IMG/VR virus record: IMGVR_UViG_3300042509_002293
Location: 1 to 64,000 of that record
Length of the DNA: 64,000 nt
Strand: one strand, 5' to 3'
DNA from: a virus
In this document: in pieces, positions 20,101 through 42,000 of the stretch
Position numbering within the stretch: position 1 is the first letter of the stretch
How the letters are laid out: every line of letters starts with the position of its first letter
Notes under the pieces: model-generated
What the model saw: the letters and a program-made list of their open reading frames with translations, nothing else
What the model was told of the DNA's origin: nothing
Database searches by the model: none
Position numbers and translations under genes: made by a program

Positions 20101-21284
20101 TCAATACCCACGACTTCTGGGCCAAGAAGCACGGCGTGGACGGCGGAGAGCCCGAACTGCTCGGCAAAGGCTGGATGCGGGTAACTGCTTCTGGCCGAAC
20201 GCTCTACCTCAGCAACTCCAGCGGCAATCCCCCGACCGATCGCCAGCGAAAGGTTGCGATTGACCACGCCATCGCGACGGACAAGTACGACGACATCGTC
20301 TTCGATGCCGGCTACGGCAAGCAGCCCAGGACGATCTGGAGCAAGAGGTCGAAGAAAGTACGAGGCGAGTCTCGTGCCTTCTGCGCGACAGGCGAAGGCG
20401 GCGGAATCGACAACTCGTGCGGCGCCGGCGAGAAGATGGCCGCCGACAAGGACTCCGGGGGCGGATCTTCTTCTCGATGGGGCGGGAAAGAGGAGAAGTG
20501 GGGCCGATCGAGCGAGACAGAAATCTGGACTCCGGGCAAGCCGCTCTTCCCCGGGGCCGAGAGCCTTGCCTCCATCAAGATCACGAGGCCAAACGACGTC
20601 CGGGGCATCATCGAGGACGGCCTGAAGATGAAGATTGCGGACGCCGTACTGGCCTCTGGCCCGGTAGCGGATTCCGCAGATCGATCGAGCATCACCCGCC
20701 CTCGGCTTGAGATTGTCCCAACCGGCCACGGCATCGAGATGCGGTGGACTTCAATGGGCGTCGCCACCGGAGAGGGCTTCAAGGGCGAGGAGGAGCAGTT
20801 CAAGAGTCAGCCGGGGACCGCCGTGAAGGCTGCCGCAGCCTCTCGCGACCTCTGGATCACGAATCAAGGGCCGGTCCTTAACATGGGCGGATTCTTCATT
20901 CATCCAGACTTCCAGGGCAAGGGCTTGGCGCTTGAGTCTGTGGCCAAGTCGTCGTCCTCGGGCGTCATCCGCATGGAAATGCAGGCCGAGCGATTTGATG
21001 CGGATGACCCGAATCTTCGCATGACCGGATACAAGGTGTGGCCGAAGTACGGATACGACGCCCCACTCTCTCTCGTCCGTGGGACTCTGAGGTCTCAGGA
21101 CCAGGAAATCCCCAAGGAATTTTCTGGTGCCAGGACTTTGGCCGACATTTTCCGCATGCCGGGCGGCCGTGAGTGGTGGTCCCAAAGCGGCGATTCGATC
21201 CGGCTCGTCTTCGACTGCCGCCCCAGAAGCAAGAGCGTCGAAACTCTGCTAAAATTGCAGGACCGTTACCGCAAAGGGAGGTAG
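14115..21284 (+). CDS. Portal protein fused to a string of cargo domains
   Basis: 2389 residues in one uninterrupted frame; a usual HK97 portal is about 400. Residues 1-400 are the portal (ALQSTVLLACCRILAETVSV, FFEQVMMNLTLWGNSYTEI, FQGEEIARCYRLPLHLIQG). A Cys cluster follows at about 506-540 (CHNCTHYFEEAGC). Then come segments separated by Cys motifs at residues 552, 804, 1020, 1599, 1924 and 2089. Segment 605-800 resembles a polyvalent-protein associated domain (VALRLDIPAF, AAYFYDKRTG). Segment 835-965 has HLGGWIDGSDGKVYLDLS. Segment 1065-1590 resembles phage DUF7178-type proteins (GPKIGAF, DRWLMRQ). Segments 1630-1900 and 2120-2389 are GNAT-like (GYTIWPRMGFNA; GYKVWPKYGYDA). ATGA overlap with terL. 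The domain names are by resemblance. Confidence 0.85.
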   Translation: MSREENAALSDIVWTPARGENEPELRSISWNNLLLSDEVFGGKFLTAAEIRINPETALQSTVLLACCRILAETVSVLPLHVYRKLKNGHEEIAEDIPLAHVLGFAPNGWQTKFEFFEQVMMNLTLWGNSYTEIKSGKYGSVTELNNLHPSNMRVERLENGRLKYTYNDPQTGRALEYTQDQVMHIRWTPQPDGVKGMMPVEIARDAIALARACEIYASKFWANMGRPGVVLQTDGAISAETAERLRDNWERIHRGVSNAYKTAILTNGLRVEQFGATNTDSQYLDVRKFQGEEIARCYRLPLHLIQGQSGGNLEVQGREFVDYTLMPWLARIEQAISRSLIYDDATYKARFDVRGLLRGDSASRASYYSTMMGLGIFSINDVRRQEGMAPLGPDADKHFVAMNLQTLEDAVKPKPDPSQMPGAPPPAPGGPPSLPEVKPGKAPMESPKGEASVKKLPEKASAEARELLPQDEKLEEAQQEIAEEDGKWEKEAAHYIEKNPFAARGIKCHNCTHYFEEAGCKIVRGLIAGDAICKLWVIPPEKIAPEPEQRAFCPTGEGNGIKNDCSPGGSYPVADSMPREVEAGHPALAARAPFSPVPEGSGNSAFAVPPSDSDLSQALIGSNKTKGTKIGKARELPEGTPVALRIDIPAFNHSTERMGKAVYAITIHEDKGGKSFGSPIGYDSMARLSGPVRFEAKENEAIRVATGESTKTPLATVKGKISQDRTIPKDVDSWTPVGYDPKKAAYFYDKRTGQEVKSGVDALSVGNTVFTRRPQYGDRNVKEHYRSADEMFASDSWGLESRGFCPTGEGGGIDNSCGRGDSSGGDSPDGPEPKRASTREVLDEILRSIEETGGYSVHPVTAESPTTGFMCSTVPGAEKIIDGKDQVTEAVVDAYFDEHRDYLSSRPKLHLGGWIDGSDGKVYLDLSERFETQEEAEKAAVEHNQLAIWDIANKKEIRIKNERAAEEDGEVRLQARRDLEGDRRGDRAGQEEGRSGVRRGEGQGGCGSPTGRVESREGSDCGRDDGGKFGPGNKCQEDAGDGEQESSGGDTATATLAPPQVHPGSPSHEGRVSALTTGSLLDGSERLDVPTIRGRVLETDLSQALTQRAIAAHGGRVIDINDRVSDADMDVCSDALAEDLDRAAKDLGRHSGWYSEDVGRAVEIARSMPGNEKIGDGTRDGELHDFVFSTALGILSQENTVPQNARYADAMYRNWVQTGSLIIPEEHHSALGRSFNAKAFEVVQTLADRHGWDDVMKFFSKSDTVGNLVKTANTMLPDSPYSLGVSNELVSTRVPTFALFGPKIGAFTHAVANRERADDAFDFVVKDRWLMRQAGSIFGTLMSPTDGEKSSEHMSRVLDSIKGLRTGSPLLHGLSASEVKASLQEAIRLKTTPDDDSPAMEYIRRTVKAYAKSSSSTNSTYADKTERNLAANNAFKNRTQILIAPGNGTQSLNLHRLFEEAAKKSGRGNVCEAQALGWVDTQRLWQSLGYKLKTPPDQNTFSSAFSALASGRSASGRITDIAAEAERQRREAAQASGRKSRRDATGSDEWDSTRDINAIGEDPQILFNESLSDPDTFNALLEHISALISRDSSSERRAFCPTGEGGGVKNDCPPSEGGSGGDEDDDKGGDIAKADDDSGPRPSSGPEIKIGDKPEEIDRRLEAMGIKQDDAIGMVGGSRDGTYVFVRRDHDRDGGDGLHIETTRDVAGVKDGLFSQSVVYNAGPPQSPELVVDHKLMDVKTDVSRDPEKRHAAAREFFRIMTDSVQESLKRGVSKITLNAAGDPKQARDGMFRGYTIWPRMGFNAPIPNHIRNKLPPDLGHCRTLLDLHATPDGTRWWKKNGTDLDVQLDLTKADSPQMQVFGRFVRHFERDRRDLAYGTGDEWLSPADEVKLDELWQEVWDEGLLDDYTGEDEDFRVLEKRAFCPTGEGGGVKNDCSPNDEGGGDTATAPRPNTMPKAKYDDPRNKESWLSTGGDFHPFDRAKEPADRLKSPIGFNTHDFWAKKHGVDGGEPELLGKGWMRVTASGRTLYLSNSSGNPPTDRQRKVAIDHAIATDKYDDIVFDAGYGKQPRTIWSKRSKKVRGESRAFCATGEGGGIDNSCGAGEKMAADKDSGGGSSSRWGGKEEKWGRSSETEIWTPGKPLFPGAESLASIKITRPNDVRGIIEDGLKMKIADAVLASGPVADSADRSSITRPRLEIVPTGHGIEMRWTSMGVATGEGFKGEEEQFKSQPGTAVKAAAASRDLWITNQGPVLNMGGFFIHPDFQGKGLALESVAKSSSSGVIRMEMQAERFDADDPNLRMTGYKVWPKYGYDAPLSLVRGTLRSQDQEIPKEFSGARTLADIFRMPGGREWWSQSGDSIRLVFDCRPRSKSVETLLKLQDRYRKGR
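16996..17154 (+). CDS. Nested small ORF inside the portal fusion
   Basis: 52 residues in the +1 frame relative to the portal fusion, starting MSEQPKKMVRFDFKPGATSK and continuing EIAEAIERARKKVVQEYAEA. It looks like an ordinary helical protein. Over the same bases the portal frame gives an Arg/Gly/Glu-rich string (ARRDLEGDRRGDRAGQEEG), which looks like out-of-frame translation. The start overlaps the end of the preceding cargo domain in ATGA style. It may be a former separate gene swallowed by the fusion or a true overlapping gene. Confidence 0.4.
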   Translation: MSEQPKKMVRFDFKPGATSKEIAEAIERARKKVVQEYAEAKAKADADRQLGE

Positions 21285-25096: not shown

Positions 25097-25179
25097 GTGA
25101 TCGCCTCCTTTTAGGGTGAACGTGTGGCCGCTGTTTTGCGGTCGCCACACGAAACACACACCCGCAAGGAAGCGATCAC
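25097..25179 (+). promoter_or_regulatory. Structured leader of the major capsid gene
   Basis: The 5' region folds into nested stems. The outer stem pairs GTGATCGC (25097-25104) with GCGATCAC (25172-25179). Inside it CGTGTGGC (25121-25128) pairs with GCCACACG (25144-25151). The ribosome site AAGGA lies at 25167-25171, directly abutting the 3' outer arm, and the ATG follows at 25182. Such folding could protect the mRNA or modulate capsid translation. No -10/-35 pair is obvious between the terminator and the leader. Confidence 0.5.
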
Positions 25180-25181
25180 AG

Positions 25182-26654
25182 ATGGAAGCCTCCGCCAAGG
25201 TCAAGCAGCTTCTCGACGAACTGGCCGCCGTTCTCGCAGAGATGGGCGCCCTCCAGGAGCAGGGCGACATCGAGGACACCGAGGCCGGTGACGAGATGGC
25301 CGAGAAGGCCGGCATGGAGGAGGACGAGACCGAAGCCGAGTCCCCCGAGCAGGTCGCCGAGGAGGAGGAGGCGAAGGAGAAGAAGATTCGCTGCCTCTGC
25401 GAGCGTGCCGAGAAGATCCGCGACCGCATCAAGTTTTACGAGTCTGTGGCCGCCAAGGAGCTTGAACTCCGAACGGTCCTGGACAAGGCGACCCCCGCGT
25501 CGGAGGCCGCCGTCGTTTCTCGAAACACCCCGGCCAAGGAGGGCCGTTCCGTGACGCAGATTTATCACAACCTTCCCGGTGCCGGTCGTCTCCGTGGTTT
25601 CCGTGGCCCGAACGCCGAGGAGCGTGCCTATCGTGCTGGCATGTTCTACAAGTCGGCCCTGTTCGGCGACCGTGAGGCGACCCGGTGGTGCGCTGACCAC
25701 GGCGTGATCGACAGCCGCGCGATGGGCGAGGGCGTCAACTCGCTCGGCGGCGTGAGCGTGGCCGAGGAGGTGCTCAACGAGATCATCGTGCTGGTTGAGC
25801 AGTACGGCGTGTTCGTTCAGAACGCCCGCAACGTGAACATGCAGTCGGACACCCTCGTGGTGCCTCGGCGAGTTGGCGGTCTCCAGGCCTATTTTATTGG
25901 CGAGAACACGAGCATCCCGGATTCCGACGCGAGTTGGGATCGGGTTCAGCTTATCGCCAAAAAGGTGGCTGTCTCTAATAGGATTTCTTCGGAGCTTTTG
26001 CAGGACTCCGTACTGGCTTTGGGCGATTATTTGACTATGGAGACAGCAAGGGCCATTTCGATCCTCACGGATCGCGTGGGCTTTGTGGGCACGGGCTCCG
26101 GCGAAGACGGTGGTATCGTCGGTGCCGCGACGAAGGTCGCTGACGGCAGCCACAACGCCGGCCTCGTGACGGCCGCGACCGGCAACACGTCGGCTACGAC
26201 CCTCACGATCGACGACTTCGTGAACACCGCAGCCCGTCTCCCCGTGTACGCACGGGCTCGGGCCGCGTGGTACTGCTCGCCCGCCGTGTTCGCGGCCAGC
26301 GTGCAGCGTCTCGGCCTGACCAACAACGGCAAGCTGACGGGCGGCAACAGCGCCTCGAACCTCGCCGATGCTCCCGAGATGCGTCTGCTCGGATACCCTG
26401 TGAATTTCGTGCATACGATGCCGAGCAACCTGGGTGTCGATGCCGGGAAGGTGCAGTTCCTGCTCGGCGACCTCAGCCTCAGCACGATGTACGCGACCCG
26501 TCGCGGCCTCCAGATCAAGACCTCGGTCGACCGCTACGCGGAACTCGACCAGACCCTGATCGTGGCGACCACGCGTTTCGACGCGGTGACGCATGACTGC
26601 GGCGACAACACGAAGGCTGGCCCGCTCGTTGGTCTCCGCACGGCTCTTTCTTGA
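25182..26654 (+). CDS. Major capsid protein, HK97 fold, with N-terminal delta domain
   Basis: 490 residues from the ATG at 25182. Residues 1-110 are a highly charged coiled coil (AKVKQLLDELAAVLAEMG, VAEEEEAKEKKIRCLCERAE), the scaffold-like delta domain removed by the prohead protease. The mature shell follows: YRAGMFYKSALFGDREATRW, GVNSLGGVSVAEEVLNEIIV, FVQNARNVNMQSDTLVVPRR, SNRISSELLQDSVLALGDYL and the C-terminal VDRYAELDQTLIVATTRFDA. This is a standard HK97-like major capsid protein. The likely cleavage is near residues 115-140. It is preceded by a structured leader. Confidence 0.9.
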   Translation: MEASAKVKQLLDELAAVLAEMGALQEQGDIEDTEAGDEMAEKAGMEEDETEAESPEQVAEEEEAKEKKIRCLCERAEKIRDRIKFYESVAAKELELRTVLDKATPASEAAVVSRNTPAKEGRSVTQIYHNLPGAGRLRGFRGPNAEERAYRAGMFYKSALFGDREATRWCADHGVIDSRAMGEGVNSLGGVSVAEEVLNEIIVLVEQYGVFVQNARNVNMQSDTLVVPRRVGGLQAYFIGENTSIPDSDASWDRVQLIAKKVAVSNRISSELLQDSVLALGDYLTMETARAISILTDRVGFVGTGSGEDGGIVGAATKVADGSHNAGLVTAATGNTSATTLTIDDFVNTAARLPVYARARAAWYCSPAVFAASVQRLGLTNNGKLTGGNSASNLADAPEMRLLGYPVNFVHTMPSNLGVDAGKVQFLLGDLSLSTMYATRRGLQIKTSVDRYAELDQTLIVATTRFDAVTHDCGDNTKAGPLVGLRTALS

Positions 26655-27204: not shown

Positions 27205-27978
27205 ATGAAGGTTGTTGTCGGTAACTTCGAGCACGACGTAAAAGTCGCTGCTTGCCTGAGCGTCCCCCGGCTGGGCTTTCAGGATAATTTTTTCACGGCC
27301 TATGCGGGGCTGGCCCCGCACGGCATCCAGATCACCAAAGGCGCCGGGGCCTTCTGGGATCAGACCATGTCCCGCATCCTCACGGATCTATCCAGTGAGG
27401 AGGCCGGGAATGATCTCGTCATCACGCTCGACTACGACAGCGTGTTCGAGCCCGACTGCGTCGTTCGGCTCGTCTCTGCGCTCCTGGTCAGCGGCGTCGA
27501 CGCCATCGCCCCGCTTCAGACCAAGCGGGACGACAAGAACCTGATGTTCACGCCGGCCGGTCTGGCCAGCGACACGGACGGCCCTGTGACCGTCACGCTG
27601 CCCGCCGAGTGGTGGGAGAAGCCGGCCCAGTTGGCGGACACGGCCCACTTCGGCCTGACTGTGATCCGCACGTCCGCCCTCCGCAGGACGCCCAAGCCCT
27701 GGTTCGTGGGAATCCCGAACGAGAAGGGCGACTGGGGTGACGGCCGGCGAGACCCGGACATCGGATTCTGGCATCGCTTCCGCGAGGCCGGGAACACCGT
27801 GGCCGTGTGCCCCCAGGTGGCGATCGGGCATGCCGAGCTTGTCATCACTTGGCCAGACCAGCGGCTCGGAGCCATCCACCAGTACCCGACCCACTACTGG
27901 GAGGCCGGCGGCAGGCGTCCTCCGGAGGCCTGGGGGAGCGACGACCACGCCGAGAAGTCCATGAGAGGCAGGAAATGA
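27205..27978 (+). CDS. GT-A type glycosyltransferase in the head operon
   Basis: 257 residues with a GT2/GT-A arrangement: a nucleotide-binding start MKVVVGNFEHDVKVAACLSV, then NDLVITLDYDSV with the D-x-D-type metal motif at residues 76-78, and a central PDIGFWHRFREAG acceptor-side helix. It would transfer a sugar from a nucleotide sugar. It lies between the decoration-type protein and the connectors and is coupled (ATGA) to the next gene, so glycosylation of virion proteins is a natural but unproven idea. A CCAAGCC/GGCTTGG hairpin spans the region just before its ribosome site. Confidence 0.75.
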   Translation: MKVVVGNFEHDVKVAACLSVPRLGFQDNFFTAYAGLAPHGIQITKGAGAFWDQTMSRILTDLSSEEAGNDLVITLDYDSVFEPDCVVRLVSALLVSGVDAIAPLQTKRDDKNLMFTPAGLASDTDGPVTVTLPAEWWEKPAQLADTAHFGLTVIRTSALRRTPKPWFVGIPNEKGDWGDGRRDPDIGFWHRFREAGNTVAVCPQVAIGHAELVITWPDQRLGAIHQYPTHYWEAGGRRPPEAWGSDDHAEKSMRGRK

Positions 27979-29171: not shown

Positions 29172-29545
29172 TCCTCGGCCTCGAAGAGACGAAGCAGGCC
29201 CTCCTGGACTTCCCGTCCGTGCTCGACACGGACCGGGCACTTCGCGACGTGGCCTCCCAGTTCCGGGCCAGGATCTCCAGCGTCACCCCCGTCGGCTACA
29301 GCGGCCGTCTCAAGCGGTCCGTCATGGCTGAGTTCGACGAGGGCGTCGCCAGGGTTGGGTACGAGGAGGGCGTCGAAACGTCCGGGAATCCGGAACTCGA
29401 CAGCGTCCTGAGGCCCAGGACCAGGGGCCGCAGCGTTCTGTGGGTTCCGGCCGAGGACCTGGGCGAGTTGCTGGCCCAGGAGTTCGAGGACTTCGAGGGT
29501 GTGGCCATGTCTGTCCTGGAGGACGCCTTCGATGGCCGCTCCTGA
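29168..29545 (+). CDS. HK97 gp10-like tail/neck protein
   Basis: 125 residues. AAGGAG at 29154-29159 supports the GTG at 29168, which overlaps the previous stop, over an in-frame GTG at 29159. VILGLEETKQALLDFPSVLD, LRDVASQFRARISSVTPVGY, SGRLKRSVMAEF is the helical core of HK97 gp10-type proteins, and the C-terminal AEDLGELLAQEFEDFEGVAM closes it. It takes part in head-tail joining. Confidence 0.75.
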   Translation: MILGLEETKQALLDFPSVLDTDRALRDVASQFRARISSVTPVGYSGRLKRSVMAEFDEGVARVGYEEGVETSGNPELDSVLRPRTRGRSVLWVPAEDLGELLAQEFEDFEGVAMSVLEDAFDGRS

Positions 29546-29927
29546 GGCTTGGCTCCGCAACGCGATCACCCAGGCGACCACGGCCGGGGTCCACCCGGTC
29601 CTCGCCCCGCAGAATTCGCCATTCCCGCTCGTGGTGTACCGGCGTTCCGCGACACGCCGCGAACGAGGCTTGACCGGGAATTTCGGGGTCCCGGTAGCCA
29701 CGTTTTCCGTCTCGATCGTCTCCCAGTCCTACTCGGAGGTGAAGGACATCTCCGACGCGATCCGAAGGCGGGTCGACAACTTTACGGGCGACTACTCTGG
29801 GGTGAAAATTGTGACAGTGGCGCTCACTGCCGAGAGCGACAACATGGAACGTCCTCCGGACGGTCAGGCGAAGCCACTTTACAGGGTCGACCAAGTCTAC
29901 GACGTTCGATTTCAGGAAACCATTTAG
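29532..29927 (+). CDS. Tail terminator/completion protein, DUF3168-like
   Basis: 131 residues. APEAWLRNAITQATTAGVHP, PFPLVVYRRSATRRERGLTG, VATFSVSIVSQSYSEVKDIS, DAIRRRVDNFTGDYSGVKIV and a final YRVDQVYDVRFQETI match the DUF3168 tail completion fold. It caps the tail tube at the head end. The first 14 bases overlap the preceding gene. Confidence 0.8.
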   Translation: MAAPEAWLRNAITQATTAGVHPVLAPQNSPFPLVVYRRSATRRERGLTGNFGVPVATFSVSIVSQSYSEVKDISDAIRRRVDNFTGDYSGVKIVTVALTAESDNMERPPDGQAKPLYRVDQVYDVRFQETI

Positions 29928-29948
29928 CGTCCAAGGAGGGACGGCAAC

Positions 29949-30320
29949 ATGGCTTACGAGTCCTCGCAGGGCATTTCGTTCACCTTCTCCGGTCAGGCGT
30001 TTACCGCCAACCAGATTCAGATGACCAAGAAGTTGTCTGAGATCGACGTCACGAGCCTTGGCGACAAGACTGGCTCATTTCGTTCATACCGCCCGTCCCC
30101 GATCGTCGACGCCCCGGAACTGAAGGTCGACTTCGTCGGTCTCACCTTGCCCCAGATGACCTCCACCGGCGCCATCACCTGGACCGTGGACGCCAGCGGC
30201 TCGAACGCGGCCTTCACGGCGAACATGCCGACGGTTGCGCTCTGCACCTCGGCCGACGTGACGGCTCAGGTTGGCGAACTCATCAAGGGCTCCGCGACTT
30301 TCCGCCTGACTCAGAACTAA
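29949..30320 (+). CDS. Tail tube protein paralogue 1
   Basis: 123 residues, MAYESSQGISFTFSGQAFTA ... AQVGELIKGSATFRLTQN. The pattern 'SQGIxFxFxxxxYTAxQIxxxR ... EFDVTS ... IKVDWVG ... LxIxAQAGELIKGSATFKV' defines five consecutive genes here. The beta-rich fold and position between tail terminator and assembly chaperones point to tail tube proteins. This first copy has a perfect SD (AAGGAGG) and is likely the main tube subunit. Confidence 0.65.
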   Translation: MAYESSQGISFTFSGQAFTANQIQMTKKLSEIDVTSLGDKTGSFRSYRPSPIVDAPELKVDFVGLTLPQMTSTGAITWTVDASGSNAAFTANMPTVALCTSADVTAQVGELIKGSATFRLTQN

Positions 30321-30339
30321 CACCCCGCCGAGTCTGACA

Positions 30340-30690
30340 ATGCAGGACTCGCAAGGGATTACGTTCTCGTTTGGTGGCAATGCTTACACGGCGACCCAGA
30401 TCGCCGTGTCGCGAGGCCGCGCTGAGTTTGACGTCTCCAGCACAGACTTGTCATCGAAGTCGCTCAGGCGGCTTCGGCTGGGGAAGATCAACGAGGTCTC
30501 AATAAAGGTCGACTGGATCGGCAAGGTGACTCCGACGGTCACGGCCACGGCCAACTTCACTGTCACTGGGACTGACCTCGGAGCAAATTCATTCTCCGGG
30601 AAGCCCGCCATCTGCACGGGCCTGAGCATCACCGGAAACGCGGGCGACCTCGTTCGCGGTTCGGCGACGTTCAAGGTGTCACACGACTAA
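30340..30690 (+). CDS. Tail tube-like paralogue 2
   Basis: 116 residues, MQDSQGITFSFGGNAYTATQ ... SIKVDWIGKVTPTVTATANF ... AGDLVRGSATFKVSHD. It is a close paralogue of the copy that follows, sharing the ATQIxVSRGxAEFDV segment and the LRRxRLxxxxxxxIKVDW centre. No clear SD, but the start is fixed by alignment to its paralogues. It may form a minor or alternative tail ring. Confidence 0.6.
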   Translation: MQDSQGITFSFGGNAYTATQIAVSRGRAEFDVSSTDLSSKSLRRLRLGKINEVSIKVDWIGKVTPTVTATANFTVTGTDLGANSFSGKPAICTGLSITGNAGDLVRGSATFKVSHD

Positions 30691-30707
30691 AAGTCTGGGT
30701 ACGCGTC

Positions 30708-31073
30708 ATGGCAGTCGAATTTGACTCGATCGTTGGCGTGACGTTCACGTTCGATGGCGACCCGTACACGGCAACCCAGATCAGCGTGTCCCGTGGTGCG
30801 GCCGAGTTTGACGTCACGAGCACGGCGATTCCGGACAACGGGCTCAGGAGGTTTCGGCTGAGCGAGGTCCAGTCGTGTGACATCAAGGTCGACTGGGTTG
30901 GCCTCACGATACCTCCGATCGACGCGGTGAAGTCTTTCACTATTTCGGGCGGCACGGCGGTGTCCGCCCTGTACGCCACCGGCTCGATGGCCCTCTGCAC
31001 CGGCCTGACCATCACCGCCCAGGCCGGCGAGCTAATCAAGGGCTCCGCGACATTTAAGGTGAGCTACGACTGA
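30708..31073 (+). CDS. Tail tube-like paralogue 3
   Basis: 121 residues, MAVEFDSIVGVTFTFDGDPY ... VDWVGLTIPPIDAVKSFTIS ... AGELIKGSATFKVSYD. Upstream lies AAAGTCTGGGTACGCG, one copy of the recurrent intergenic element, rather than a strong SD. The stop overlaps the ATG of copy 4. Most similar to copy 2 in the ATQISVSRGAAEFDVTST block. Confidence 0.6.
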   Translation: MAVEFDSIVGVTFTFDGDPYTATQISVSRGAAEFDVTSTAIPDNGLRRFRLSEVQSCDIKVDWVGLTIPPIDAVKSFTISGGTAVSALYATGSMALCTGLTITAQAGELIKGSATFKVSYD

Positions 31074-31447
31074 TGGCTTACGAGTCCTCCCAGGGAATCA
31101 TCTTCAAGTTCAACAACGTGGTCTACACGGCCACGTCGGTGTCCGTGTCGAGGTCAATGGGCGAGTACAACGTCACGAGCCTGAATATCCCCAAAGGCCC
31201 GAACTGCATGACCCGGTACAGGCCCGGCGGGCTCAAAAGCATCGAGATCAAGGTTGACTGGGTTGGATCCACCCTGCCCCCAACGGATGCGCCGTATTCA
31301 ATCGCCTTTGATGGCGACGGCCCTGGTTCTGGCTCCGGGCTGACTGAAGACTCGATCAGCAAGGCAATCGCCACGGGAGTCACGCTCACAGCGCAGGCCG
31401 GGGACTTGATCAAGGGCACTGCCACCTTCAAGGTCACGGTGGACTGA
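31073..31447 (+). CDS. Tail tube-like paralogue 4
   Basis: 124 residues, MAYESSQGIIFKFNNVVYTA ... IEIKVDWVGSTLPPTDAPYS ... AGDLIKGTATFKVTVD. Its first seven residues are identical to copy 1. It has a Gly/Ser-rich loop (GDGPGSGSG) at the position where copies 1-3 are shorter. It overlaps its neighbours at both stop/start junctions. Confidence 0.6.
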   Translation: MAYESSQGIIFKFNNVVYTATSVSVSRSMGEYNVTSLNIPKGPNCMTRYRPGGLKSIEIKVDWVGSTLPPTDAPYSIAFDGDGPGSGSGLTEDSISKAIATGVTLTAQAGDLIKGTATFKVTVD

Positions 31448-31878
31448 TGGCAGGCGAATTGCCGGCTGGATTTCCTGAAGTCGTCGAGTCGCAGGGCATC
31501 ACCGTGCGGTGGGGCGGAGTGAACATTGTCGTCACCGGGATTCGCTACAACCGATCCGCAGCGGGCGAGGTCGACGTTACGGGCATTCGCTCGTTCGCGT
31601 GGACAGACGCAGCTAACTCAGACAATCGTCGAGTTGTCAAGGAGGTCGAGTACAGCGTCATCGACCCTGGCGAGGTGGAGTGCGACTTCGTTGGGCCGAG
31701 CACGTTTGACGAAAGCTGGGTGGGCAATCGCAGACTCCTGACGATCTCAGGGCTCGACAACGCCCCGAGCGGCGTCCAGGCCTATCTCACGAATCTTTCA
31801 ATACAGGCACGAGCCGGGGAACTGGTCACCGGCTCTTGCACGTTTCGTTTGTCGAGCGACATGACCGGTGTTTTTTAG
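31447..31878 (+). CDS. Tail tube-like paralogue 5, most divergent
   Basis: 143 residues. EVVESQGITVRWGGVNIVVT, GEVDVTGIRSFAW and LSIQARAGELVTGSCTFRLS preserve the family frame, but the N-terminus is extended (MAGELPAGFPE) and the centre has an acidic insert (YSVIDPGEVECDFVGPSTF). It may serve at a tube end. It starts on the stop of copy 4. Confidence 0.55.
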   Translation: MAGELPAGFPEVVESQGITVRWGGVNIVVTGIRYNRSAAGEVDVTGIRSFAWTDAANSDNRRVVKEVEYSVIDPGEVECDFVGPSTFDESWVGNRRLLTISGLDNAPSGVQAYLTNLSIQARAGELVTGSCTFRLSSDMTGVF

Positions 31879-31904
31879 TCTGGATATCAGGAGTAGGTAG
31901 GCAT

Positions 31905-32270
31905 ATGGGATTCTTGAACAAGGCGGCGATTCTGGCGGCGAAGGACAAGAAGATGGTCGAGGTTTCCGTGCCCGAGTGGCCCGACGACAAGGGCGAGCCG
32001 GGCGTGGTGAACCTCCGGGTTCTCACCGGCACCGAGCGTGACCGTTTCGAGTCGGAGTTTGTGGGCGGCAACAAGTCCGTCGACATGGTCCGGGCGAAGC
32101 TGGTGGCGAAGTGTCTGTGTGACTCGGATGGCAACCGCCTCTTCACTGAGCAGGAGATTCCTGCACTGAGCGACAAGAGCGCGGCCGTCCTCGACCGTCT
32201 CTTCGCGAAGTGCATGAAGCTCAACCGGTTCACCAAGGACGACGTGGAGGAACTCGCGGGAAACTCCTGA
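31905..32270 (+). CDS. Tail assembly chaperone G-like
   Basis: 121 residues from the ATG at 31905, preceded by GGAGTAGG. It begins MGFLNKAAILAAKDKKMVEV and includes VVNLRVLTGTERDRFESEFV and SAAVLDRLFAKCMKLNRFTK. It has the size, position and helical character of lambda gpG-type chaperones that coat the tape measure. A -1 slippery site near its stop creates the longer GT product. Confidence 0.8.
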   Translation: MGFLNKAAILAAKDKKMVEVSVPEWPDDKGEPGVVNLRVLTGTERDRFESEFVGGNKSVDMVRAKLVAKCLCDSDGNRLFTEQEIPALSDKSAAVLDRLFAKCMKLNRFTKDDVEELAGNS

Positions 32271-32566
32271 GCCGTCCGAGGCGGCGATTTGAGTATCGAC
32301 TGGCGTTGGCACTCGGGAAGACGCACAGGCAACTCCTGGAGGAGTGCGACGCTGAAGAACTAGCCGAGTGGGAGGCCTATTGGCTGATAGAGCCGTGGGG
32401 GGACGAATGGCGACAGATTGCCCGTCTCACCACGGCTCTATGCACTGCATGGGGCAGTAAGAACCTCGAAGAGGAAATGATCATGCCGAGCAGCCGCAAG
32501 CCTCCCCAGTCGAAGGATCAGATGATGAGCGAGCTTATGAAGGTCCCAGGGCTCTTTCAGAATTAG
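31905..32566 (+). CDS. Tail assembly chaperone GT-like fusion by -1 frameshift
   Basis: Slipping at GGGAAAC (32258-32264) moves the ribosome into the frame that reads LLSRPRRRFEYRLALALGKT, avoids the TGA at 32268 and ends at 32566. The T-like part contains LLEECDAEELAEWEAYWLIE, the usual 'EWxAYxxxEP' region of gpT-type proteins. The final product is about 220 residues. The ratio of G to GT controls tail assembly in lambda. Confidence 0.8.
32258..32264 (+). promoter_or_regulatory. -1 ribosomal frameshift site
   Basis: GGGAAAC in the frame G GGA AAC, one base different from the lambda G/T site GGGAAAG. It lies four bases before the zero-frame TGA (32268-32270). Both tRNAs can re-pair at their first two positions after a -1 slip. 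The shifted frame is open for a further ~100 codons and gives the expected gpT-like sequence. Confidence 0.8.
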
Positions 32567-32568
32567 CG

Positions 32569-35500
32569 ATGGCCACGATCGGATCACTCGTCGTCGAGTT
32601 TGGGGCAGACCTTCGCGGGCTGAGCGAGGGGATCGGCGCCGCCGTCGACTTATTCGATCAGGTCGCGGAGAGGGCCGAGAGGCTCGCTGAGCAGCTTGAG
32701 TCGTTGGCCCGGCGTGACACCAGGATCAGCATTTCCGCAGACTCGTCCGAGGTCGACTCGGCCACCCAGAGCGTCGAGGACCTCGGGGAGGCTATTGAGT
32801 CTGCCTCGGACGTCGGCGGCGTGTCGGGCGGGCTGTCGGAGGTTTCCTCCGCCGCGCAGGCTGTCGCCACGTCATCTCGCGACGCGACCACCTTCATCAG
32901 CAGGTTCGGCGAGGTTGCTTCGGAGGCTATCCGCCGTCCGGCCAGCGACGCCCTTCGCGGGACGGAGTCCTACATCGAGATGCGGGACTCGATATCCGGG
33001 ATTGGCTCCACCGCATCCCAGTCCCTTGAGGCCGTCTCTTCGGCGACGGAGACGACGGCTTTCGCGGCTCGCGGATGCGCCGAGGCCTTCACGTCGCTCG
33101 CCTCCGGAAACTCTGCCGGCCAGTTTGCCGACGCCGCCATCGTTGCGGCCGGGAGGGTCGTGTCAGCGTACCGGGAGGTTAGTACGCTTTTCTCGGCTGT
33201 CCTGCCGCAGGCCATCGGCGAGGGCGTTACGGCATTCGGAGCCTTGACCGCAACCGTGGGCGGAGGCGGGGCCGTTCTAGCTGCGTTCCAGGGCAGTTCG
33301 GCAGCCACGGCGATTGTTATCGGGTCTCTCGCGAGGTCGTTTGTCGGCGTCGGCGTCGCCTTGGCAACCTATTCCGCAATCATGGCGGCAGCTAGGGTCG
33401 TGCTTTCGGGGCTGAGCGACGAGGCTCGCGCGTATGCCGAGGCCGGAGTGTCGGTCGTCGCGATGATTGTGTCGGGAGCCGCTGCCGCGAGGGCCGGGGC
33501 TGCGGCATACCAGATCGTCGCCTCGGCCATGTTCCGCTCGGGGTCTGCGTCCGCCCTCCTGTCTCAGGTCCTGGGAACTGTCTCATCCGCCACGTCCAGG
33601 CTGCTCGGGCCGACGACGAGGCTGGTTTCTTCCTACGCGACGCTGACGAGCATCATCGGCGTGGCGTCCACGGCGTTCCAGGGCTTCAGCGACAGGCAGC
33701 AGAGCGTTTCGCAGACGTTCACCCAGATTGCAGGCTCGGTGGCGAGGTTCGCGGCCACGTCGGTGGCGATCGGCGCCGTGTCAGGTGGCCTGAATGCCCT
33801 CCGCGCGTACGCTGTGGCCGCCGGCGGCGCAATGACCTCGGCGGGTGCAGGCTCGGCGGCCCTCTCCGGGGCTTTCGGCGGCGCCACGGCAGCCGCCGGC
33901 GGGCTGATCGCGACGTTCCCCGCCGTGGCCGCCGCCATATCCGTGGCCGCCGTCGCATCCGGGAGGTTCGAGCAGCAGCTTGAGTCTCTTGCGTCGAAGG
34001 CCGAGTCCATCGAGCAGATGGCCGATCGCTTTGGGTCATCCAACGAAGGCGTGGAGAAACTGAGGATCGCAGCCTCGAACGCCAACGTCTCGATGATGGC
34101 CCTGATCCGATCGCAGCAGAACTTCTACACCAACCTGAGCAAGGTCAAGTCGGGCCAGTTCGACAGCCAGAACACCCGAGAGGCCAAGCTGGCCTTCGAC
34201 GAGCTTGGCATACCGGTCGAGAAGCTGAAGTCCCTCAAGCCGGAAGAGTCGTTCAGGCTCGTCGCCAAGTCTCTCTCCGAGGTCAAGAACGCGGCCGACA
34301 AGACCAGGATCGCCGTCGACCTGTTCGGCGCTCGTGGAGCGTTCGCCCTGCCGGCCTTGAAGGAGATCGGAGAGCTTGAGGAGGACTTTGGGCGACTCGG
34401 CGGCGCCATCCGGGCCGTCGACTTCGGGAACATTATGAGCATGGAGGCCTCGTTCGACCGGCTCAAGGTCGCGTCGGACGCCCTCAGCCGAACCATGCTC
34501 GTTCCGTTCGTCTCACTCCAGAGGGCCTTCAATAACTTCGCCGCAGACCTCAAGGGTGGGCTCGCCTCGGCCCTTGCCCCCCTGGCCACAATGCTCAACG
34601 CCATCGCGGAGCCGCTTGCCGTGATCATTGAGGCCTTCGGCCGGATGATCAACGTGACGCTCAGGCTGATCGGCATCTTCACGGGTATCGCGGCGTTCTT
34701 CCAGATATTCGCCAGCGTGGCCATGATTTTCCAGGGCATCGGCGAGGGCTTCCGCGCTGCGATGAAGCCCCTGGAAGGCCTGATCGATATGTTCTCCTCT
34801 GCCGGCAACGAGGCCGGCATCTTCAGCGGCGTGATCAGTGTCGTCGAGACGGTCCTCAACGGGATCGGCGTGGCGATCGGCTATGTGATCGGCATCCTCG
34901 CGAACGCGGCCATCGTGATCGTAGCCGGCGCTGCGGCGTGGGCGATCTACTCGGCGGCGATGGCGTTGGCCTCTGCCACGTCCATCACGGCAGCCTTTTC
35001 TTTCGCGGCCGCCTGGGCTGCGGCTCTCGGTCCGTTCCTTCCCGTCATCGGGCTGATCGCCGGAGGAATCGCCCTCATCGGCGGTGCGGTGATGCTTCTT
35101 GCCGTTGGCATCAAGGCCGCATTCGGGTACTTGGTCGGCCTCGGGCAGGCTTTTGGTCTCGTCAGCAAGCAGCGGGATCCGATTGACGCCTCCGCAGCCT
35201 CGACCAAGGACCTCGCCGCCGCAGCCCGAGAAGCCCAGGACGCCGCCTCGTGGTTCAGCGACGGCGAGAACGAGAGCGTGATCGCCGAGTCGGTCAGCGA
35301 AGCCAGGGACGCCTTCAACGGTCTCGTCACCGAGTCGATTAAGTACGGCAAGGCGGGCTCGGACTCTATTGCGTCCGTTCAGAAGCGGTACGCCGACCTT
35401 GAGCAGTCTCTCGCGGACGGCAAGATCAGCACCGAAGAGTTCACCAGCAAGACCGAGGGCCTGTTCGAGTCTGCCGAGAAGGGCATGAAGGACTACGAGC

Positions 35501-37782
35501 AGAGCGCAGCGGTCACGCTCCAGAAGAACCTGGAACTGTACAAGCAGCTTGACGACTCGGTGCGTCAGGTCGAGAAGTCGGTCCGGGACCTCAACTCTGG
35601 CACGGTCGTCGACGGGAAGCTGTTTCCGGCTTCCGAAGAGGTGAAAAAGCGGGCGGCAGAGTACAAGGCGGAGTACACGGCCGCCATCGATGGGATTAAG
35701 AAGAAGCAGCAGTCCGGCGGCTTCCAGGACGAACTCAACGAGCGGCGGAGTCAACTCACGGCCGACCTGGAGTCCGGCAAGATCAATGCCGAGCAGTACG
35801 CCACCATGAAGGTGGAGCTTGACTCCACGAACGCGCAGGAGCAGGCCAAGTTTGCCGCCGAGGACGTTCAGCGGGAGTTTGACCGCAAGACCGCAAAGCT
35901 CAAGGCGGACATCTCGTTCGCTGACGACATTCGGAAGAAGCTCGACGAGGCCTTCCTGTCTCCGGTCGAGAAGTTCCAGAAGGAACTCCAGAAGGTACTC
36001 GACAACCCGCAGCTAACAGACGCCGAGAAGGGTTCCGCAGAGAAGATGCTCCGCCGGGATGCCAAGGAGGATCTCTTCGGCAAGACGGCCCAGCAGAACC
36101 TCACGGACCGGACTCGCGACATCATGCAGGCCAACAGGGCCGGCATTCTCGGTTCGCCGATGGCCGAGGCCGGTGGCGACGGGACGGTGCCTCCGGAGGT
36201 GGCTGCCGAACTGAAGTCCGCCGCCGAGGAATTCGCCTCTGCGGTTGGGGTCACCAGGACTCCTTTCGAGGAATTCTCGTCTCGGCTCGACGGGGTCGCG
36301 AAGCAGTTCGGATTCGCCGGGCAGCCACTCGACGAGGTCCGCAAGAAGCTGGCCGGCAACGCCGAGCAACTCGCCCTCTTCGATCGTGCCGTCCAAGAGG
36401 CTCGCGACAGCCTTCTTCAGTCCTTGGGCATCGAGAAGACGCCCGAGGAGGCCTTCAACGAGCAGATGAAGAAGATCGACGAGGCCGTCAACGCGACGGA
36501 CCCGAACAAGAGGATCACCGCCGAGCAGGCCGAGCAGGCCAGGACCGTCGCCCGCCGCAGACGGGACGCGGAACTGGGAGCCGGCGAGGACCTCGGCGGT
36601 CAGTTCGCCGAGCGTCAGCGGAAGATCGAGGAGTCGTTCGGTGGCGGCAAGGACCCGGCCCGGCAGGGCGTCGCCATGAACAAGCTGGCGATGGACCGCC
36701 GGCAGGCGGCCGGCCTGGACGCGACGGCTGGGCAGACGCTCAAGGCCGGCGTCGACAAGATCAACGACGCGTTCGGCGTTACCGGAAAGTCGATGGCCGA
36801 GATCCAGGCCACCCTCTCTCCGGCTGATTTTGCCGAGTACCAGGAGGCCGTCAAGGCAAACGCCGACAAGGTGAAGCAAAGTCTCGGCATCGAGAAGACC
36901 GGAGCCGAGCAGCTTGCCGAGACTCGGAAGAAGTACCAGAAGGCCGTCGCGGACAAGGTCATCACGGAGGAGGAGGCCGGCAAGGCCCTGAAGCGGCAGA
37001 GGGACAGCCTCCTGTCTTCGCTCGGGATCTCGAAGACACCGGCCCAGGACTTCGAGGACGCCGTCGAGCGAATCAAGGAAAACGCTGCCGAGCTTTCTCC
37101 GGACGAACTGGCGAAGGGAATGAAGGAGGCGAAGGACAAGCTCTTGTCGAGCCTGGGCATCGACAAGTCTCCGGTCCAGGCTGCTTCCGAGCAGATGGAA
37201 AAGCTGACGGAAGCCTTCGAGAAGGGCCAGATCAGCACAGAAGAGTTCGCGGACGGCATGCAGAAGACTCGCGACACCATGCTTCAGTCTCTCGGGATCC
37301 CGCTCGACCCGGTGACGCAACTCGCTGAGAAGATGAAGAATCTCCGGGAGGCTATGGACGCCGACCAGATTACGCCCGAGGAGTTCGCCCGTGGCGAGGA
37401 GGAGGCCAAGAGGGCCCTCCTGCCCGGTGGCGAAGAGGAGAGCCCGATCAAGAAGTTCCAGCGGGACCTGGAGACTCTGGAACGAGCCAACCAGGACAAG
37501 CTCATCTCGGACGACGACTTTGCGCAGCGGAAGCTCAACCTCCAGGCGGAGCTTGAGGAGTCCCTCGCCCCGGCCCTGGACAAACTGGCCCCAGACCGCC
37601 GTGGCGTCGACGGCTCTGACGCCCGCAGCAAGGCCGGCGTCGACACGTTCTTCCGGATTCTTCGCGGCAACGACAACCCGTCGCTCAAGGCCCAGCTTGA
37701 GATCGCCAAGAACACCCGCCTCCTCGCCGAGGCCTCGCGGGAGCCCGAGGCGGCTCCGTTCATCGCCCAGCTTCCTCGATAG
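32569..37782 (+). CDS. Tail tape measure protein
   Basis: 1737 residues, beginning MATIGSLVVEFGADLRGLSE. The first 600 residues are Ala/Ser-rich helices, and residues ~640-880 include long hydrophobic stretches (VIGYVIGILANAAIVIVAGA, GPFLPVIGLIAGGIALIGGA) typical of tape measures that interact with the membrane during DNA entry. From about residue 1210 to 1690 there is a repeated coiled-coil unit with the recurring phrase LLxSLGIxKTPxxxF. The size implies a tail of roughly 250 nm, by the usual ~0.15 nm per residue. The gene follows G/GT as expected. Confidence 0.9.
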   Translation: MATIGSLVVEFGADLRGLSEGIGAAVDLFDQVAERAERLAEQLESLARRDTRISISADSSEVDSATQSVEDLGEAIESASDVGGVSGGLSEVSSAAQAVATSSRDATTFISRFGEVASEAIRRPASDALRGTESYIEMRDSISGIGSTASQSLEAVSSATETTAFAARGCAEAFTSLASGNSAGQFADAAIVAAGRVVSAYREVSTLFSAVLPQAIGEGVTAFGALTATVGGGGAVLAAFQGSSAATAIVIGSLARSFVGVGVALATYSAIMAAARVVLSGLSDEARAYAEAGVSVVAMIVSGAAAARAGAAAYQIVASAMFRSGSASALLSQVLGTVSSATSRLLGPTTRLVSSYATLTSIIGVASTAFQGFSDRQQSVSQTFTQIAGSVARFAATSVAIGAVSGGLNALRAYAVAAGGAMTSAGAGSAALSGAFGGATAAAGGLIATFPAVAAAISVAAVASGRFEQQLESLASKAESIEQMADRFGSSNEGVEKLRIAASNANVSMMALIRSQQNFYTNLSKVKSGQFDSQNTREAKLAFDELGIPVEKLKSLKPEESFRLVAKSLSEVKNAADKTRIAVDLFGARGAFALPALKEIGELEEDFGRLGGAIRAVDFGNIMSMEASFDRLKVASDALSRTMLVPFVSLQRAFNNFAADLKGGLASALAPLATMLNAIAEPLAVIIEAFGRMINVTLRLIGIFTGIAAFFQIFASVAMIFQGIGEGFRAAMKPLEGLIDMFSSAGNEAGIFSGVISVVETVLNGIGVAIGYVIGILANAAIVIVAGAAAWAIYSAAMALASATSITAAFSFAAAWAAALGPFLPVIGLIAGGIALIGGAVMLLAVGIKAAFGYLVGLGQAFGLVSKQRDPIDASAASTKDLAAAAREAQDAASWFSDGENESVIAESVSEARDAFNGLVTESIKYGKAGSDSIASVQKRYADLEQSLADGKISTEEFTSKTEGLFESAEKGMKDYEQSAAVTLQKNLELYKQLDDSVRQVEKSVRDLNSGTVVDGKLFPASEEVKKRAAEYKAEYTAAIDGIKKKQQSGGFQDELNERRSQLTADLESGKINAEQYATMKVELDSTNAQEQAKFAAEDVQREFDRKTAKLKADISFADDIRKKLDEAFLSPVEKFQKELQKVLDNPQLTDAEKGSAEKMLRRDAKEDLFGKTAQQNLTDRTRDIMQANRAGILGSPMAEAGGDGTVPPEVAAELKSAAEEFASAVGVTRTPFEEFSSRLDGVAKQFGFAGQPLDEVRKKLAGNAEQLALFDRAVQEARDSLLQSLGIEKTPEEAFNEQMKKIDEAVNATDPNKRITAEQAEQARTVARRRRDAELGAGEDLGGQFAERQRKIEESFGGGKDPARQGVAMNKLAMDRRQAAGLDATAGQTLKAGVDKINDAFGVTGKSMAEIQATLSPADFAEYQEAVKANADKVKQSLGIEKTGAEQLAETRKKYQKAVADKVITEEEAGKALKRQRDSLLSSLGISKTPAQDFEDAVERIKENAAELSPDELAKGMKEAKDKLLSSLGIDKSPVQAASEQMEKLTEAFEKGQISTEEFADGMQKTRDTMLQSLGIPLDPVTQLAEKMKNLREAMDADQITPEEFARGEEEAKRALLPGGEEESPIKKFQRDLETLERANQDKLISDDDFAQRKLNLQAELEESLAPALDKLAPDRRGVDGSDARSKAGVDTFFRILRGNDNPSLKAQLEIAKNTRLLAEASREPEAAPFIAQLPR

Positions 37783-38704: not shown

Positions 38705-39073
38705 ATGGCATACGGACCATCACCCAGCTATCGCGCAGACTCCGGCTCGGCGTCCAGGCCTGTTCAGTTCACGCTCCAGGATGCGGAGCGAATCGGAAGA
38801 GTGGTGTCCGCCTACGAGCGAAGTCGTCGGGGCAGGAATCCCAGCACGCTGCCGAGGGCGGCTGGCGGCGGCGCGGCAATCCGGGAGGCGACGTTCGTGG
38901 GGTCGTGGGCGTTGGGGTCTCAGAAAGTCGTCGACCTAGCCGGCGGCGGGGGCACTGCGGTCGCGGTCAACAAGCTGTTCAACATCATCGGCGTTGGCTC
39001 CTTCGGCTGGAGGACCTGCTACATCTCTCGGTCCGGCGACGGGCCGTATGTTCTCGTCAACTCGGAGTGCTGA
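38705..39073 (+). CDS. Small tail tip-region protein
   Basis: 122 residues, MAYGPSPSYRADSGSASRPV ... LQDAERIGRVVSAYERSRRG and a Gly-rich C-terminal half with a Cys pair (CYIS, SEC). 'LQDAERIxxVVxxYER' is a phrase seen in small proteins around baseplate genes of related phages. The function is unknown. Its stop precedes the next start by two bases. Confidence 0.55.
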   Translation: MAYGPSPSYRADSGSASRPVQFTLQDAERIGRVVSAYERSRRGRNPSTLPRAAGGGAAIREATFVGSWALGSQKVVDLAGGGGTAVAVNKLFNIIGVGSFGWRTCYISRSGDGPYVLVNSEC

Positions 39074-39075
39074 CG

Positions 39076-42000
39076 GTGGGCTCCCCTGATCGAGGCTGTC
39101 ACTCGCCGCGAGCCTACACCTGGGGGGAGGGGGCATCGGCGTCGTCCACCTACGGAAGGTACAGGGGCTCGTGGCCGTACCGCCAGGGGTCATACTTGCC
39201 TGGATTCTTCGGGGACTTCCGAGACCCGCCGATTGCGGGCGATTGCCAGATCCCTCCGTCCATGCAGGGAGACTGGATTGATTTCTCGTCAACGGGCTGG
39301 ACGTCGTATGCCATCGACTCTTCTGGCCAGTTGTGGGCGTGGGGAGACGGTCCGCTCGGGGACGGAACGCTCTACGGCTCCATGCACCCAATCAGGATCC
39401 CCGGGGGTCCCTGGAAAAGTGTGTCGACGTGCGGGCCCCACACCGTGGCCGTCACCACAGACGGCGACGTCTATACATGGGGCGGAAACTCTTACGGTGA
39501 GCTTGGCAACGGGACGGCGAGGGCACCTGAATCGTGGTCGCCTCGGCTGATGCTTAACTCGTCGATCGAGTACGTCAGGACAGGTCCCGGGACCGAATTC
39601 AACCCTTCATTTAATCTGAATTCCCCGCAGATTGTGAAGGCTAATCAAGACGACCCCGGCGGCGGTGCCATCCTCCGGGTCAACCGCGAATTTTTCATAG
39701 AGCGGTTTACCAACATATCGGCCTCCGGAATCTCTTTTGGGGAATTATTTAGCCTGCCCGTCCTGAGCGTTGAAGGCTCCCCTGTTATTGAGCCCGCCGA
39801 GCTTGCGCCCAACGTCTCCCTGAGGGTGCTGCGGGTGGAGGTCGTGTCTGGCGGACAAGGCTACGAAAACGGCGCGGCCGTGGTTTTCTCTCCGAACGCC
39901 GCCGGCATTGCCGCAACCGGCCGAGTCGTTGTCTATGGGGGGGCCGTGCTTTATGTCCTGGTCGACTACAGGGAAGAGCCGGTCCTCTACGACAAGATGC
40001 CGACGGCGACGATCGTGGGGTCAGGAGGCGGCGCCGTTGTGCAGGTGGTGGCAACCGGAAGAATGACCGGGATCGATCTTCGATCGAAAGGCCGATATCA
40101 GGCATCAGGCCTGTCTGTCGCCTGGAAGCTCCTCGGCCGCGACCACTCCACCGTGGTGTCGCAGGGCGACACGTCTGGGGCTTTCCTTCCGTTCGTCGTC
40201 GCTCGCATCACCGGCATCGACGTCATCGACGGCGGCAGCGGGTACACATGCCCATCAGGCCTTCCGCTGAAGGTGCATTGCAGCGGCGTCGAGGTTGGCG
40301 AGTGCGTTCTCTCGCCGTCGGGCGTGGCGTCGGTGACTCCGTCGACGGTCCAGGCGGCCGACCGGTCGCTCGGCGAGTTGTCGCCGTTCTCGGTAGGAAT
40401 CTATCAGTCGGGTGCTTCATTGACTTACAAGTACCCGCCCAAAGGCGCCGAGCTTCGCTTCACCGGCAGCGGGCTGGCGGTGCCGCTTGAAATCTCCTTG
40501 TCGTCAGCGCCTTTTGCCACGTCGCTCGACGCGGAAGCCGTTAATTATCCTGACGAGAAGTCGAAGGCCAGCGTGAACAAAGTTTTCGTTGTCCACAGCA
40601 AGGGAAGTTTTTCTATTGACGTCGCTGGGCGGAACGTCCGTGAAGAAAGCAAGGTTGAAATCTGGGTTCCCTACGAGGGAGAGCCGAATCCAGAAGTCCC
40701 GAAGGCCTACCTCACGTTCCAGGATGGATACCCAGAAATCGAACTGGTCGTCTGGTTTGACTATCCGCAGTGGTCGGCTCGCTTGACGGAGTCGATCTAC
40801 GGAGTGACGAGCAGGCCTTACGTTGTGGTGAGACAATCCGAGGAGCAGTACGGCCCCGGGACGAGGCCATCCACAGTCCTGCCGCTGCCGGTGGCTGCGG
40901 TTGATCCTACGGGATTCCCCTCTGCGATACCTCACGCCCCCTACAACCGACCCTTGAATCCATCCCGGGGCGGGCTCCTGCTGTGGGGCCAGAGGGCTTA
41001 CGACCAGCGACCTCTCACTGGGGGGCAGTGTTTCTGGCTGGGTCCTGGCATTACGGTGAGCGACTACGCTACGTCCGAAGGGGACCGGTGTTACGAGGTC
41101 GTCGACAACGTGTACGGCGGAGACGTCCTCGGGCTCGTGAGGGGCGTGCCGGCGACACTCACCGGCGCTGAAGCTCGAACCCACCACCAGACGAGCAGGT
41201 TACTGACTGGCTACGGCGTCACTGTCTACACATATCTTGGCGGGCAACGCTACTCATGGCCAGACTTCCAGACTCAGAGCGTTTATCCGGAGAGGCGGTC
41301 CGTAATAAGCAACTTAGGTGAGTCCTGGGAGGGACCGCCGACGCTGCCCCCGCAGGTCACCGCCGTATACGACGATGCCGGAACATACGGCGATCGGGTC
41401 TCAATCGCCTGCTCGGTCGGCACTCAAGGAAGGTCCGTAGGCCTATCCTTCTCGATATCCGACCCCGGCTCAGGATACAGGGAGGAGCCGAGCGTTGTGT
41501 TCACGACCCTGGCCCTGTCGCCCACCAGGATTTCCTCGATCTCCGGCGTCGACAAGGCCGTGGCCGTTTACGGTCGGACAACTCTCCTCAAGGACGGCGT
41601 CCTGTACTGGTGCGGCGCCGAGCACATCGGCTACAGCAATGGCACAGTCGCGTCGCTCATCTCGACGACCCCCACACGCCAGGGGTACTCGCTGCGGGTC
41701 TATTCCAATGGCTTGCTCGGAGGCATGCCCTGGAACCTGATCGATTACTGGGCTCCCAACCCCCCGGACGAAACGTACATCCTGAACATGCTGACGCAGG
41801 CGTTCCTGCCCCAGGCCAGGACGTCGGGGTGTGACGCCACTCCCCGGCAGGGGGACGGCCACAGCGATTCGTATGTCTCTCCGGGGCCCGTCGACGTCGG
41901 GCCGCCGTCGCCGCTGACTGGGGTTCCGATCTTTTGGCCGCCTGAGGGGTATGTGCCTCCTCCGCCGCCGACGGGGTGGCAGCCGCCCCCTCCGCCGCTG

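Follow-up and report, generated by a model that had tools for sequence, protein, structure and literature searches.

The window analysed here is a stretch of 64,000 nucleotides of viral DNA, positions 1 to 64,000 of the 96,079-base IMG/VR record IMGVR_UViG_3300042509_002293. It carries five complete open reading frames arranged head to tail on the + strand between positions 29949 and 31878, where an earlier sequence-only reading had placed them. We call them A to E. The features of the locus are the following.

25116-26654: major capsid protein
29532-29927, + strand: tail terminator (Tail_completion_gp17; PF11367 8.9e-9, phrog_347 4.5e-10)
29933-29939, + strand: Shine-Dalgarno AAGGAGG of A, from the sequence (duplex -10.5 kcal/mol)
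29949-30320, + strand: A, tail-tube-type protein of 123 aa; probable major tube protein
30340-30690, + strand: B, tail-tube paralogue of 116 aa, net positive
30708-31073, + strand: C, tail-tube paralogue of 121 aa
31073-31447, + strand: D, tail-tube paralogue of 124 aa; start overlaps the stop of C
31447-31878, + strand: E, divergent tail-tube-type protein of 143 aa; start overlaps the stop of D
30330-31889, + strand: exchangeable cassette B-C-D-E, delimited by breaks of DNA similarity with the related loci L007 and L010
31905-32270, + strand: gpG-type tail assembly chaperone (phrog_344 3.9e-25)
32210-32566, + strand: gpT-type reading frame (PF06223 6.6e-8)
32569-37782, + strand: tape measure protein of 1737 aa (phrog_9483 6e-8, size and position)

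The gene order is major capsid protein, connector, head closure, HK97 gp10-like, terminator, A-E, gpG-type, gpT-type and tape measure. It corresponds to the order of lambda, with five genes standing in for the tube gene. Lying between the terminator and the chaperones with the tape measure, the array occupies the position expected for a tail-tube gene. A slippery heptamer (G GGA AAC, 32258-32264) is in frame at the end of the gpG-type gene, and the gpT-type frame is in -1. Because a canonical in-frame heptamer (GGGAAAC, AAAAAAC or GGGAAAA) is kept in 86 of 94 relatives, a lambda-style G/GT -1 frameshift is probably used at this site. A tail sheath gene (PF04984), which a siphophage lacks, was not found in the 96 kb record, possibly incomplete, while control genomes were positive.

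Upstream, the open reading frame at 14115-21284 encodes 2389 aa. Its first ~490 residues correspond to a portal protein (phrog_12, 1.2e-106) and the remaining ~1900 are nearly without annotation, making an unusually large portal fusion. Between the capsid and connector genes, the gene at 27205-27978 is conserved at 64-85% in relatives and shows a weak glycosyltransferase-2 similarity, below the cut-off.

The five proteins range from 116 to 143 aa and the divergent member is E, in agreement with the differing lengths and the single divergent copy described previously. E presents an extra N-terminal extension and a longer β2-β3 loop. Paralogue searches covered the whole 96,079-base record. With copy D as the query, the matches were exactly the sites of A-E: C had an E-value of 2.6e-28, A of 1.7e-23 and B of 1.5e-22, and copy E only 1.7e-3. 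An E-class profile likewise matched only A-E (4e-44 for E, 9e-18 to 1e-12 for A-D), and neither search gave a further candidate tube gene in this record. The alignment of A-E has 14 invariant columns, and the similarity is well beyond chance. The five genes are one family. The frame SQGIxFxF...KVDWVG, proposed as common to them, holds only approximately: KVDFVG and GSATFRL are found in A, KVDWIG and GDLVRGSATFKV in B, and C is without SQG.

We predicted structures with AlphaFold2 for A and E, using alignments of 68 and 51 relatives (pLDDT 81.8 and 76.1, respectively). This check, suggested by the sequence-only reading, gives a tail-tube/Hcp-type β-sandwich for both proteins; B-D are assigned to the fold through homology only. 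The Foldseek lists for A and E consist almost entirely of tube-type proteins, including T6SS Hcp and tube-like baseplate rings. For A, every top structural match is a tail tube, a GTA tube, a tube initiator or an Hcp, and the same is true of most matches of E. With VIA-align, A matches the R4C tube (Z 8.8; 3.1 Å, 112 aligned), the monocin tube (8.6) and GTA (8.4), and E matches 9vne (Z 9.9) and GTA (9.0), values of 8-10 being near the level that the tool itself rates as middling.

Scans of 119 family members with Pfam and PHROGs gave no convincing tube-family match above cut-off, and a PDB sequence search gave no credible match. The link to a curated family, PF16461, comes via profile-profile comparison only. 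A search with the chaperone led to Streptomyces Dubu, phiSASD1 and Yara and to Thermobifida P1312. In these nearest named relatives, the locus between the terminator and the homologous chaperone encodes a single tube protein of PF16461 (lambda-type), compared with five copies here. The A-D and E profiles align with PF16461-type proteins over nearly their full length, with E-values of 6e-6 (85.0%) and 6e-9 (95.9%). Given the consistent match list, the gene position and this profile link, the assignment of A-E as tail-tube proteins is firm despite Z values of 8-10, through models for A and E and through sequence for B-D; their role in the virion is predicted. By homology, inferred fold and position, A-E are paralogous tail-tube proteins. 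The claim of five tandem tail-tube paralogues is thus upheld by the fold of A and E, the profile link, the gene position and the lack of any other candidate tube gene.

Internal stops are absent from A-E, and all five genes have orthologues in other phages. The dN/dS values are about 0.07-0.35 at every array position, considering non-saturated comparisons. It means that every copy is under purifying selection, and this contradicts the earlier caveat that the additional copies might be pseudogenic. With no internal stops, orthologues elsewhere and these dN/dS values, all five copies look functional. Redundant or decaying copies with no function of their own would fit the variable copy number and the lack of B-D in close siblings, but purifying selection on all copies, deep orthology by position and conserved order make them very improbable.

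The expression signals are not uniform along the array. A strong Shine-Dalgarno sequence precedes A in nearly all loci, B-D are mostly without one, and E is variable. In the window, D and E have a moderate Shine-Dalgarno-like sequence (-6 to -7) together with translational coupling, and in some two-copy phages the E-class gene, E', is preceded by a strong one. Among the copies, codon usage comes closest to that of the capsid gene in A, and this holds in 7 of 7 five-copy genomes. A is also the most conserved copy and E the fastest evolving (mean identity 64% vs 42%). Strong Shine-Dalgarno, capsid-like codon usage and highest conservation together suggest that A is probably the bulk tube protein, and B-E would be made in smaller amounts. 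The net charge tracks array position across phages: about -2 to -4 in A, mostly +2 to +4 in B, -3 to -5 in C, about -1 to 0 in D and -3 to -8 in E.

Related loci were collected by scanning the public viral contigs of IMG/VR. Every relative has at least two tube copies, and the number goes from 2 to 6. Most relatives have two, one branch has three, L119 and L122 have four, and L019 and L020 have six; L065 and L077 only seem to have four, because their arrays run into the end of the contig. Five copies are present in the window and in L008, L012, L015, L016/L017, L018, L021/L023, L024 and L030. In the distant branch formed by L119 (7596-9111) and L122 (4895-6389), there are four tube-type domains, and the fourth lies in a 474-aa open frame that overlaps the others. 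Outside this group, a pattern scan for A in genomes from 84,980 species gave no relative that would point to a host, and A with two distant relatives had no match among 50,697 phage records. The actinophages REQ1 and Madraxi have extra small genes at the equivalent locus. By visual inspection, P0009 and P0011 among these seem unrelated, and P0008 and P0010 had no match in Pfam.

In a tree of 122 members, the copies cluster by array position rather than by genome. The array order is fixed across relatives, each position forms its own orthologous lineage, and E is a class of its own throughout. This grouping by position indicates that the duplications are old and that the order was kept. Two-copy phages hold one A and one E-class gene, so A and E are the common core and B-D an accessory part. 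From these comparisons, B, C, D and E are each a separate, selected and position-specific part, not spares.

Close siblings of the window are L007, L010 and L013 (terminator 79-85% and chaperone G 89-90% identical). DNA similarity between them and the window extends up to the end of A (30319-30329), breaks off there and returns at 31890, immediately after E. Between these points, E' alone replaces B-C-D-E, with ~40% identity to E. On the backbone tree (terminator and chaperones), 4 changes between the two-copy and five-copy states are needed. On the E tree, the cassette state changes once, in a well-supported split (94/95 support, 96% of bootstraps), and the AU test of a backbone-like E topology gives p 0.095, short of formal rejection. 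From four changes against one, E of five-copy phages and E' of two-copy phages are two old types travelling with the cassette. Judging by breaks and trees, B-C-D-E is one of at least two alternative cassettes, E' being another, and each is exchanged whole between the conserved A and the conserved chaperone gene. The suggestion that the genes are swapped to alter tail properties therefore stands as far as the swapping is concerned, which concerns the whole B-C-D-E block between close relatives.

For the whole array, we favour with about even confidence a reading in which these are tandem-duplicated tube paralogues, with A as the body of the tube and B-E as low-copy specialised rings in exchanged cassettes. 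A-E would come from tandem duplication of one gene with the lambda/Hcp tube fold. A would be the bulk tube, stacked around the tape measure, as expression signals and conservation suggest. B-E may assemble into a short segment or into specialised rings, one or a few in number, most likely at one tube end. The earlier idea of distinct tail segments is compatible with this and preferred, considering the fixed order, the position-specific orthologues and one apparently highly expressed copy. Decoration variants are less likely, because all copies are core-sized (116-143 aa) and no added decoration domain is seen.

One tube end is favoured because a fixed order and the longer strand 2-3 loop of E would fit a transition to another structure. 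In known tubes, this loop is the main contact between rings (PMC8718954). There are also precedents in T4 gp48/gp54 and XM1 gp11. These low-copy proteins lie at the junction of baseplate and tube, and the tube polymerises on them; for XM1 gp11, homology with the tube protein gp7 has been described (PMC3004832, PMC10457771). They resemble B-E as low-copy tube-type parts, as proposed here from the genes alone. However, the genes of these initiators lie apart from that of the tube protein (gp19 in T4), and their tails are contractile. We know of no recombining array of genes of these types. Against an end position, the usual initiator-ring genes are near the baseplate genes rather than beside the major tube gene.

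The type of E varies with the presence of B-D. This would fit a place for E physically after B-D in the tail, and linkage alone could also explain it. A mirror-tree analysis gave no specific partner for E, whose distances correlate alike with all tail and head genes. The tape measure has 1737-1911 aa in five-copy phages and about 1544-1872 in two-copy phages and does not track copy number. We reject for this reason that the extra copies simply lengthen the tail. An early hint that tape-measure residues about 200-600 follow the cassette type was undone by the two-copy L025, L026, L029 and L039, which resemble five-copy phages.

The main rival is a hetero-oligomeric tube, in which the paralogues share rings or take turns along its length, so that the whole tube is a co-polymer. 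We consider it unlikely. The best VIA match of A and E is a chain of the Hcp2-Hcp3 heterohexamer (9vne_B), tied with many homomeric tubes. At least two copies in every relative are in line with mixed rings, and the position-specific net charge would suit hetero-contacts. However, the conservation of A far exceeds that of its partners, and A remains in place even where all of them have been exchanged as a cassette, whereas strict co-polymers should co-evolve. A also looks much more strongly expressed. The heterohexamer comes from the T6SS of Bacteroides fragilis (PDB 9vne) and shares with the window the presence of tube-fold paralogues in one organism. It differs in belonging to a secretion system with mixed rings, while here the paralogues are known from genes and single-chain models.

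On the other hand, B-E might be sparse subunits with differing exposed loops, which alter adhesion or resist host surface defences and are swapped as adhesins are. Horizontal exchange of the cassette and the rapid evolution of E agree with such surface variation. Nevertheless, the lengths are core-only, with no Ig-like or carbohydrate-binding domain added, the dN/dS values show no overall positive selection, and mere surface variants need neither fixed order nor position orthology. We regard it as improbable.

Still less probable are roles in assembly or after infection, with some copies acting as decoys, chaperone partners or ejected proteins outside the mature tail. There is a parallel in Hcp of the T6SS, which doubles as a secreted chaperone for effectors. 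However, A-E lie inside the tail-building operon, and no cargo gene was recognised alongside.

The array is real, intact and unusual. For contractile phages, groups of three tube paralogues have been described before. Among the open-access literature, the closest case is the tube-gene triplet of Vandenendeviridae (PMC12846349). In the Pseudomonas phage Adele, the tail tube genes TPP1-TPP3 have 24-29% identity, each in its own clade. They are proposed to be specialised and differently placed in the tail of contractile myoviruses, with three stable copies and a sheath gene (PMC12846349). Both systems have adjacent tube-fold paralogues in their own clades and a -1 frameshifted chaperone gene. The window does not belong to this type of triplet, stable at three copies and contractile: there are 2-6 copies here (five in the window), a sheath gene was not found, and closely related phages exchange the block. 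Another known case is the long flexible tail of SPP1, with two forms of the major tail protein, gp17.1 and gp17.1* (PMC8718954). These come from one gene by a frameshifted C-terminal extension, in a 3:1 ratio. In contrast, each of A-E has its own separate start and the full domain, which speaks against a frameshifted second form of that type.

The usual picture of a long flexible tail is a stack of one protein. Several different tube parts seem to make up tails of the present type. In a large uncultured group, the tube-type genes always number between two and six; B-D may be present or absent and are traded together. The preferred reading could be extended to a tail that is a heterogeneous polymer, with up to six tube paralogues in defined places (hetero-rings or ordered segments) and the minor set swapped as a recombining cassette. 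We put this forward as possible rather than likely. If true, the tail would be re-engineered with the major tube protein and the length ruler untouched. The natural gains and losses in near-identical backbones, as between the window and L010, are a ready comparison for the roles of minor tube subunits, such as tube start, symmetry adaptation to the tip or changed mechanics.

Two further observations concern the genes downstream. The tape measure (32569-37782) is strongly mosaic between siblings, with C-terminal repeats around LGIEKTP-like motifs and stretches out of register in the alignment with L010 and L012. Finally, the open reading frame at 38905-45576 encodes 2223 aa, with an RCC1-like region at residues 129-212 and a baseplate-wedge-like region at residues 1535-1735 (approximate limits).
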